Shown here: piece by piece, positions 17,093 through 18,435 of the stretch
How positions within the stretch are numbered: the first letter of the stretch is position 1
How the letters are laid out: each line of letters starts with the position of its first letter
NCBI GenBank assembly: GCA_947495685.1
Contig: CANLZY010000004.1
Coordinates: 62,001-126,000 of the forward strand
Length of the DNA stretch: 64,000 bases
Source of the DNA: an uncultured Tropicimonas sp.
Lineage (GTDB): Bacteria; Pseudomonadota; Alphaproteobacteria; Rhodobacterales; Rhodobacteraceae
Reading direction: 5' to 3'
Position numbers and translations under genes: made by a program
The notes under the pieces: model-generated
Database searches by the model: none
What the model was told of the DNA's origin: nothing
What the model saw: the letters and a program-made list of their open reading frames with translations, nothing else

Positions 17093-17515
17093 TCACTCCT
17101 CTCCGGTGACCTTGCCGCGCGTTGCCTTGACACCGCTGCGGCGGGTCTTGGCGTCGAGGCGACGCCGTTTTGACCCGAGAGTGGGGCGGGTGGCGATACG
17201 GCGCTTGGGAGTATGGGTGGCCTGGAGAATCAGCTCGGCGAGCCGTTCGCGGGCGATCTCGCGGTTCCGGGCCTGGCTTCGGGTATCTTCGACCCGCAGG
17301 ATCAAGGCGCCCTCGCTGGTCCACTTTCGACCCGCGAGACGTTTCAGGCGCGCCTTGACCGGGCCGGACAGGTTGGGGCTGCGCGCGGCCTCGAACCGCA
17401 ATTCCACTGCCGTTGACACCTTGTTGACGTTCTGCCCACCCGGCCCCGAAGAGCGCGTGAACTGCTCTGTTACCTCCCAGTCCTCGATCGTGATGTCGTC
17501 GTTGACCTGTATCAT
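17093..17515 (-). CDS. arfB: Alternative ribosome-rescue factor / peptidyl-tRNA hydrolase ArfB (YaeJ)
   Basis: A 140-residue protein from ATG 17515 (MIQVNDDITIEDW). The release-factor GGQ motif is RSSGPGGQNVNKV near residue 23, followed by family residues such as ALILRVEDTRSQARN. The Arg/Lys-rich C-terminal tail (about 105-140) is what ArfB threads into the empty mRNA channel of stalled ribosomes. It hydrolyses peptidyl-tRNA on non-stop complexes. Its 3' end contains the ribosome site of the phospho-lyase gene. Upstream, 68 bases before the ATG, is a strong intrinsic terminator belonging to a structured leader RNA, which suggests attenuation. Confidence 0.93.
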   Translation of the reverse strand: MIQVNDDITIEDWEVTEQFTRSSGPGGQNVNKVSTAVELRFEAARSPNLSGPVKARLKRLAGRKWTSEGALILRVEDTRSQARNREIARERLAELILQATHTPKRRIATRPTLGSKRRRLDAKTRRSGVKATRGKVTGEE

Positions 17516-17582: not shown

Positions 17583-17619
17583 TCAAAATGAAAGGGCCGC
17601 CCCTTGCGGAGCGACCCTT
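17583..17619 (-). terminator. Rho-independent terminator before arfB
   Basis: On the minus strand AAGGGTCGCTCC pairs with GGGGCGGCCCTT over 12 bp (G-U pairs included) around a GCAA tetraloop, and TCATTTTG follows. The strong stem, GNRA loop and following T-rich stretch make a convincing intrinsic terminator. It sits between the short leader frame and arfB. Confidence 0.8.
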
Positions 17620-17687
17620 CGAGTTCATGGAGGTGAGGTCTCTTGGACCCATAAGTCCTTCGGGAGGCATATGCCTCAAGGGCTGCC

Positions 17688-17744
17688 TTATCGGCGCGCC
17701 GTCCCGATTAGTTTGATACCTCGCTCCAGCATGACTCTCGACAC
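17688..17744 (-). CDS. Putative 18-residue leader peptide
   Basis: GTG start with AAAGGAGG at 6-base spacing, ending in TAA; the peptide reads MSRVMLERGIKLIGTARR. The ribosome site is the best in the neighbourhood, which argues that the frame is translated even though it is short. The peptide ends in two Arg residues just before the stop and overlaps the first hairpins of the leader RNA, as in attenuator peptides. It is not a known leader that I can name. Independent micropeptide function is the alternative. Confidence 0.5.
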   Translation of the reverse strand: MSRVMLERGIKLIGTARR

Positions 17745-17802
17745 TGGCCACCTCCTTTCGCTTGTTGCGGTTGTCCTCAGAGTGACACAGATCCGCTAAC
17801 TG

Positions 17803-18435
17803 TCAATTAATTTCGGCAGACCTCGTTGTCAGGCGCATGACGATCAGGCGGAACGGGATCAGCGCGACCAATGCCAACGACAGCTTCACCGTCCAGTCGG
17901 CGACGGCCAGCGAGACCCAAAGCGCGGCCTGCGGCCCGGCCCCCAGAAGCGGCAGGACCTCCTGTGCCCAGATCGGTGTGTTGCCCGGTTCCAACCCGTT
18001 CAACGCGGCCGAAAAGGCGATGGTGAAGAAGATGGCAGTGTCCAGCGTCGAGCCGATCAGCGTGGACGCCAAAGGTGCCCGCCACCAGGCACCGCCGCGC
18101 AGGCGGTCGAAAATGGCGATGTCCATCAGCTGCGCGACCAGAAACGCCATGCCGGAGGCCATGGCGACCCGCAGCGTGACCAGTGGCCCGTACTCGCCGA
18201 TGATCTGGGTGCCGATCAAGGAACAGATGACGCCCACGACAAAACCGGCCAGCACCACGCGACGGGCCGGTCCGGGGCCATACAGGCGGTTCATCAAGTC
18301 GGTGACCAGGAAGGCAAAAGGATAGGTCAGCGCGCCCCAGGTGAGCCATTGGCCCAACAGGTGTTGCACGAGGATGTTGGAGGCCACCACGATGATGGCC
18401 ATGGCAAGGATGCCGGGAAGATGTCTGCGTGTCAT
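17803..18435 (-). CDS. Queuosine-precursor transporter (YhhQ/VUT family)
   Basis: A 210-residue membrane protein with about six hydrophobic helices (about 8-30, 37-55, 60-80, 88-110, 120-140, 170-200). The family signature LVTDLMNRLYGPGPAR follows the second helix, and VAQLMDIAIFDRLR resembles the second conserved block. These proteins import queuosine precursors such as preQ0/preQ1 across the inner membrane. ATG 18435 is the only good start. No preQ1 riboswitch consensus was seen upstream. The end of the gene lies directly before the arfB leader RNA on the same strand. Confidence 0.88.
   Translation of the reverse strand: MTRRHLPGILAMAIIVVASNILVQHLLGQWLTWGALTYPFAFLVTDLMNRLYGPGPARRVVLAGFVVGVICSLIGTQIIGEYGPLVTLRVAMASGMAFLVAQLMDIAIFDRLRGGAWWRAPLASTLIGSTLDTAIFFTIAFSAALNGLEPGNTPIWAQEVLPLLGAGPQAALWVSLAVADWTVKLSLALVALIPFRLIVMRLTTRSAEIN

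Follow-up and report, generated by a model that had tools for sequence, protein, structure and literature searches.

The window analyzed here, a stretch of 64,000 nucleotides of DNA from an uncultured Tropicimonas sp. (Rhodobacteraceae), carries on its minus strand a predicted RNA of 176 nt (17767-17592) that is, as judged from covariance matching and alignment, a divergent relative of the Caulobacter small RNA family CC2171 (Rfam RF01867). The element is best read, at a rough probability of 0.55, as an autonomous, translated and self-masking sRNA gene, with arfB probably added as a read-through cistron in Rhodobacteraceae. The RNA appears to be an old gene in its own right, so far unstudied.

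The ends of the RNA were predicted, the 5' side from a full-length RF01867 match and the 3' side from a terminator stem; all features that follow lie on the minus strand. Its upstream neighbor is a vut/yhhQ-like queuosine precursor transporter gene (18435-17803), and a -35-like promoter box, TTGACA (17806-17801), overlaps the stop codon of that gene. The ribosome site AAAGGAGG (17758-17751), read from the sequence, is part of an extended Shine-Dalgarno sequence of 11 nt, GAAAGGAGGTG (17759-17749), complementary to the 3' end of 16S rRNA. A micro-ORF follows, also read from the sequence, with a GTG start and 18 codons plus TAA (MSRVMLERGIKLIGTARR, 17744-17688). Downstream of the frame were found a hairpin, GGAC-TTATGG-GTCC (17658-17645), that covaries among relatives, and an anti-ribosome-site segment, TCACCTCC (17636-17629), that resembles the 16S 3' end; its CACCTCC (17635-17629), the mask, pairs with GGAGGTG at 17755-17749. 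The intrinsic terminator has a 12-bp stem (17619-17608 / 17603-17592) with a GCAA loop and is followed by TCATTTT. The next gene is arfB, encoding a ribosome-rescue hydrolase (17515-17093, ATG at 17515; NCBIfam ArfB, 176.7 bits, cut-off 100).

A sequence-only reading of the window had placed the promoter box, ribosome site, 18-codon GTG frame, CACCTCC and terminator where they were found here, and its picture of a real leader-like RNA with a translated-looking micro-ORF, a self-masking ribosome site and a terminator was confirmed by sequence analysis. Its 68 bases from terminator to arfB became 76 when recounted to the arfB ATG (about 75-76 nt from the last base of the stem). The GAGGCAT/ATGCCTC palindrome that it singled out is indeed perfect but peculiar to this genome; aligned relatives back other hairpins, such as GGAC-GTCC / GGGC-GCCC, with double changes.

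TTGAC was present 49-51 nt 5' of the ribosome site in 18 of 30 Rhodobacteraceae loci (the family sample) and anywhere within 75 nt in 20/30, against 3/30 for a control window. A consensus scan found no sigma-70 pair, or matching -10, at the TTGACA box. Terminator-like sites in the window, scanned in the same manner, were not above chance (3 vs 3.3 in shuffles, the terminator of the RNA being among the 3). The sole match at gathering score in the Rfam scan of the window was a serC leader (RF00517; 35724-35775, plus strand; 70.2 bits, over its cut-off). Matches to BjrC68 and suhB/mmgR were dropped because they lay below their cut-offs; the BjrC68 match spans only the 3' half.

RF01867 matched the RNA with 35.5 bits over model positions 1-159 of 159, short of the curated gathering cut-off of 75, and with a genome-wide E-value of 1.6e-5 was the sole match in this genome at E<=0.001. 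Matches at E<=0.001 were obtained in 26 of 142 class genomes, and in 5/142 the gathering cut-off was exceeded. In the alignment, the 5' block CAACAA..CGAAAGGAGGUG..CCAGUGUC is nearly identical in the two RNAs, which have in common this block with the extended ribosome site, the GUGUC start and a terminator. The CC2171 consensus also contains long-range pairing between the start region and a pre-terminator segment, and pairing in the window RNA is likewise long-range. In the consensus, however, a helix UCAUUGU/ACAAUGG, absent in Rhodobacteraceae, joins the first codons to the pre-terminator segment, whereas the Rhodobacteraceae helix (GGAGGUG/CACCUCC or similar) places the mask on the ribosome site itself. 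Because the masking helix differs from the consensus, the Rhodobacteraceae RNA is regarded as a related variant and not as a strict member of RF01867. CC2171 was reportedly discovered by tiling array. Its Rfam line names no micro-ORF, and its neighbors differ from those of the window RNA. In the portions of the literature available it appears as table entries, in an Rfam table and in a list of Mesorhizobium huakuii sRNAs. Two genomes (G047 and G074) had two RF01867 matches each, the second weak; these may be second copies.

Relatives were found by DNA similarity in 16 of 60 genomes, the window's own included. An exact start-site motif, AAAGGAGGTGRTCCNRTGTC, was present in 59 of 385 class genomes, with one copy each, and its 19-base family version in 133 of 198 family genomes, with a single copy per row shown; the reversed controls gave 0 in both searches. 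The motif thus usually occurs once per genome. The genome of the window has a variant of the motif that is one base shorter and so falls outside both counts, which are lower bounds because the motif is exact. Because a locus had to contain the ribosome site, RTG and TC to be picked up by the motif searches, Ser at codon 2 and GRTCC are present by construction in the loci so found. Of 19 loci found by the Rfam model, 2 (L017 and L033) failed the motif filter; the genome of L017 does have the exact motif, so that the failure there comes from where it lies within a shorter locus. Contigs of named genomes, when scanned, gave at least 118 stretches with the motif. Among 80 titles listed, 76 were Alphaproteobacteria or groups that we place there, 3 were given only as Proteobacteria and 1 as Gemmatimonadota; the groups among the matches listed include Rhodobacteraceae, Sphingomonadales, Bradyrhizobium, Methylobacterium, Bosea, Mesorhizobium, Acetobacteraceae and Caulobacterales, with others. 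The record titled Gemmatimonadota (L069, CP070812.1) carries the motif, and L154 falls in the same flanking-gene clusters; mis-binning, transfer or a true second phylum may account for this.

The ribosome site of the RNA is unusually long. The 16S gene ends in CUGGAUCACCUCCUUUCU in three genomes, and because of this end the GAAAGGAGGUGAUCCAG of many relatives forms a perfect complement of 17 nt that runs into the start codon. The extended Shine-Dalgarno sequence is contiguous over 11 nt in the window and over 17 nt (GAAAGGAGGTGATCCAG) in many relatives; relative to the 17-nt form, the spacer of the window RNA has lost one base. At loci with GGUCC the complement to 16S continues via a G-U. The 14-mer core AAAGGAGGTGATCC had 12 matches in 14 genomes (9 genomes with matches, 5 without), of which 9 were at the RNA loci and 3 antisense to 16S. 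A 16S copy was not seen in most of these drafts, so that repeats may be missing from them, and the 16S end of the window's own genome was not found. In Caulobacter a Shine-Dalgarno site is reported for 24.6% of genes only (Schrader et al., PMC4117421, in the part of the text available), and against that background, in which most genes go without one, the strong ribosome site of the RNA stands out. A published case of long Shine-Dalgarno pairing toward the start codon is alike in reach and has small ORFs among its sites; as far as the available text goes, it is a general feature of initiation, whereas here, in the 14 genomes, the only places with the 14-mer core were the RNA loci and the antisense strand of 16S.

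Such a complement could in principle serve to grip the 16S 3' end, so that the RNA would trap ribosomes and deplete the 30S pool, or report free 30S, through competition with a built-in mimic of the 16S tail. The run of the complement through the spacer into the start codon speaks for it: pairing within the start codon cannot persist once that codon occupies the P site. The spacer GRUCC was also found in 15 of the 17 loci recovered by the Rfam model and not by the motif (the model consensus itself has GRUCC), and in the window the mask has UCACCUCC in common with the 16S end. A single gene copy could hardly titrate 30S, however, the spacer of the window RNA is short by one base, and the mask resembles 16S in just part of the Rhodobacteraceae loci. 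We regard trapping as an unlikely explanation.

The 18-codon frame was present in 14 of 14 loci of the DNA-similarity set, taken without a length filter; a fifteenth (L009) was recovered with an 18-codon frame by a relaxed pattern and an 18-codon filter, and L016 of the same set was left unaligned. In a frame-length test, likewise without length filter and with loci of less than 210 nt past the start dropped (30/30, 29/30 and 114/118 kept), a frame of 14-35 codons was found in 30/30 family, 28/29 class and 112/114 contig loci (170/173 in all). In dinucleotide shuffles the corresponding proportions were 34%, 29% and 31%; in the remaining two frames they were 30-38%. The family sample (n = 30) had 24 frames of 18 codons, 3 of 20, 1 of 24 and 2 of 26. 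The open frame is, on these counts, maintained by selection, as expected of a dual-function sRNA.

It is less clear that the peptide matters. A functional micropeptide of 18 codons would account for a frame that is held open and short and for first codons that are closely alike within the family. In 44 Rhodobacteraceae frames the synonymous share of single changes was also highest in frame (0.41, with 0.34 and 0.19 for the other two), so that some selection on the peptide is possible there. Against this, the in-frame share was lowest in 22 distinct Sphingomonadales frames (0.29 vs 0.33 and 0.56), and the same was true of 13 MSHC-type frames (0.22 vs 0.44 and 0.23, with few changes). Mean entropy at codon positions 1/2/3 was 0.77/0.78/0.84 in Rhodobacteraceae, a slight third-position excess, 0.75/0.86/0.54 in Sphingomonadales and 0.83/0.95/0.78 in the MSHC type; across these three groups neither a consistent synonymous excess nor a clear third-position peak was found. 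The sets used for codon variation were chosen at fixed frame length, and their internal-stop counts were left unused because that choice biases them. Between orders the peptides are unalike (for example MSRVILERGVGTVRGAVA, MSHGSAERSVQSRARHYR and MSYTKRCHLAGIAR), and the conserved Sphingomonadales codons sit in a long-range helix, so that their conservation is explicable without a peptide. Selection on the peptide was thus unseen outside Rhodobacteraceae and is at most slight, and not clear, within. A micropeptide gene is the least likely of the readings weighed here. Seven loci (L066, L093, L104, L110, L114, L137 and L147) have a 14-codon frame whose end is KRCHLAG(I/A)AR or nearly so; no other peptide seen in the RNA family is as conserved, and 4 of the 5 loci with listed titles are Bradyrhizobium. 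This may be a case in which, exceptionally, the peptide itself counts. In MSS-type loci (L064, L028, L202), GAGCAGCCT near the end of the frame recalls GGCAGCCCTT just past the Rhodobacteraceae stop. A type I toxin mRNA was considered because the start region is masked, and was rejected when inspection by eye showed no hydrophobic or common peptide.

A fold of -77 kcal/mol was predicted for the 176-nt RNA, in which the ribosome site and CACCTCC pair and thereby enclose the frame; the probabilities of this pairing were about 0.92 for five pairs and 0.87 and 0.38 for the next two. A region of 211 nt had a z-score of -2.89, and 0 of 200 shuffles were as stable. The self-masking site of the sequence-only reading holds as a helix conserved in 15 aligned family loci, present in 15/15 at six of its eight pairs and in 13/15 at two, but in the minimum-energy fold of the 211-nt region the 3' flank takes the place of the mask as partner of the ribosome site, which is unpaired in the centroid. 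One pair of the masking helix (A-U to G-C) was altered on both sides in 5 of these sequences, and double changes were seen in 19 of the 40 pairs of the whole consensus. In a group fold of 44 family loci, chosen at fixed length, the masking pairs were held in 41-44 of 44, with one-sided changes only. In Sphingomonadales (15 loci), a near-invariant helix of 16 pairs joins codons 3-10 to the pre-terminator segment. The group folds of MSHC-/CC2171-like and MSS-type loci lacked a masking helix and contained only terminators or local hairpins.

Single-sequence tests gave a weaker signal. Pairing of the start region beat shuffles at p<=0.05 in 11 of 93 loci (median p 0.30), and over 92 loci the mean probability of pairing with the part after the frame was 0.25 for the ribosome site and 0.30 for codons 2-7. 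A permissive duplex test with swapped partners gave a median rank of 0.38, with 8/102 at <=0.05. Own and shuffled duplexes compared as -23.3 vs -18.5 in Rhodobacteraceae and -22.9 vs -20.2 in Sphingomonadales, were nearly equal in the MSHC type (-19.5 vs -19.0) and were weaker than shuffled in the MSS type (-15.8 vs -16.7). Terminators were assigned in 144 of 162 loci, some of them plainly wrong hairpins, and the duplex, group-fold, antiterminator, start-region and pairing-probability tests used subsets selected by hairpin energy. Column-shuffle z-scores of the group folds were set aside as not meaningful, two having zero variance. As modeled, masking of the start site is well supported in two groups only, Rhodobacteraceae and Sphingomonadales; in the latter (15 loci) the helix is conserved, not covarying. 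For loci of the CC2171 type, masking is retained tentatively, from the Rfam consensus only.

The sequence-only reading had interpreted the locus as a translation-dependent attenuator, in which the behavior of ribosomes on the micro-ORF would open the terminator and raise ArfB. The gene order is in its favor: in the family sample, with flanks of up to about 1.5 kb, the transporter was upstream in 25 of 30 loci and arfB downstream in 23/30, so that the order vut-RNA-arfB is common in the family. Among 193 loci of all kinds (a set in which one genome can appear more than once, with L015 = L207 as a certain case), 49 had a same-strand arfB whose start lay no more than 330 nt from the ribosome site; in another 7 the distance was 356 nt to about 1.6 kb. 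A hairpin of -19 kcal/mol or better was present in 26 of the 49 rows, and in 10 of these 26 arfB began no more than 38 nt past the hairpin, which leaves no room for a promoter of its own between them; arfB there must therefore be reached by read-through or have a promoter that lies within the RNA. Among the 10, L015 and L207 are the same locus, and L108 has its hairpin farther downstream than is usual.

The linkage was not seen beyond the family type, and within the family arfB is out of reach in 7/30 loci, so that the RNA is not followed by a consistent regulated gene as expected of an attenuator. When both proteins were searched at 148 loci, 32 had a match, and the sole one of non-family type (L099) had arfB upstream on the opposite strand; outside the family type arfB was not downstream. 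At the other 117 loci (L099 included), which had no match of the family kind, the strand of the next crude ORF was the same in 54 and the opposite in 56, with no such ORF in 7. Crude ORFs were those of at least 80 aa, and 11 of 31 family-type loci were called opposite strand, some over a known arfB. Neighbors differ between orders, and no strand preference was seen outside the family type. The sequence-only reading had named consistent separation of the RNA from arfB as evidence against itself; the RNA is parted from arfB elsewhere, which tells in part against that reading. As relatives are often found away from arfB, the RNA appears to be an independent gene and not a switch devoted to arfB.

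An ungapped pairing test for an antiterminator against the terminator arm, compared with shuffles, reached p<=0.05 in 3 of 94 loci (median p 0.43). The segment GCAGCCCTT after the stop codon, by eye like the 3' arm of the terminator, was dropped when the shuffle test gave nothing. With no antiterminator above chance, regulated termination is unsupported, and there is no sign of a ribosome opening the terminator. The masking segment and the terminator do not overlap, and inspection of the frames by eye found neither a shared C-terminal motif nor a common codon pattern resembling a stalling motif; codon 3 is AGA in 39 of the 44 family frames. Since arfB is not a general target and no antiterminator was detected, attenuation of arfB is improbable; a better fit is the alternative that the sequence-only reading had mentioned in passing, a free small RNA or micropeptide gene, though the peptide is not clearly conserved as a protein. 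A narrow literature search, which included the available part of PMC8012679, gave no case of arfB controlled by a leader. The E. coli gene arfA (PMC10107115) is a rescue factor gene tied to the state of the ribosome, as arfB may be here; in the available text its control works through an mRNA without stop codon and trans-translation, known here for arfA only.

Other small RNAs offer partial parallels, as far as the accessible text of each source goes. UpsM of Rhodobacter sphaeroides (PMC5089854) is comparable as a small RNA of Rhodobacteraceae that arises by termination of transcription, at an intrinsic terminator within the 5' leader of the gene that follows. It is described as non-coding, however, and precedes mraZ/dcw, whereas the window RNA has a translated-looking frame and its relatives also occur without the downstream gene. 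The rnTrpL/peTrpL system of Sinorhizobium meliloti (PMC10117765) is alike in combining an attenuator-derived small RNA with a translated short frame (14 aa); it is, however, a tryptophan attenuator with a leaderless frame, whereas the window RNA has an exceptionally long ribosome site and showed no antiterminator. SEP1 of S. meliloti (23 aa) had the highest translation efficiency among 54 new frames (PMC10117765), and two formerly predicted Caulobacter ncRNAs are translated (Schrader et al., PMC4117421); in the text available these are leads only, as candidates for kin of the window RNA.

For the preferred reading, an autonomous translated sRNA, the following course of events can be envisaged. 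A 30S subunit or ribosome would load onto the nascent RNA before its 3' part exists; once the RNA is completed, the 3' segment could close over the start site, so that loading during transcription would compete with closure. The key variable would then be the presence of a ribosome on the frame and not the peptide produced. Occupancy, which we infer to be what the RNA is for, would depend on free 30S and would decide between a closed and an open RNA, and in the open RNA the freed 3' segment might become available for cutting or for binding other RNAs. In Rhodobacteraceae, arfB would have settled downstream and would receive some basal read-through past the terminator. A bolder extension, which we consider doubtful, is a class-wide ribosome gauge: the RNA would weigh the free 16S tail against its own lid, translation of a disposable peptide being the measurement and the freed 3' segment the output, and in Rhodobacteraceae this gauge would have been placed before arfB.

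A class-wide RNA with a long perfect match to the 16S end and an open frame whose amino acids drift suggests that selection sees the act of translation. The RNA is a nameable and testable target in well-studied organisms, and it would connect the supply of ribosomes with RNA control and perhaps, in Rhodobacteraceae, with ribosome rescue.
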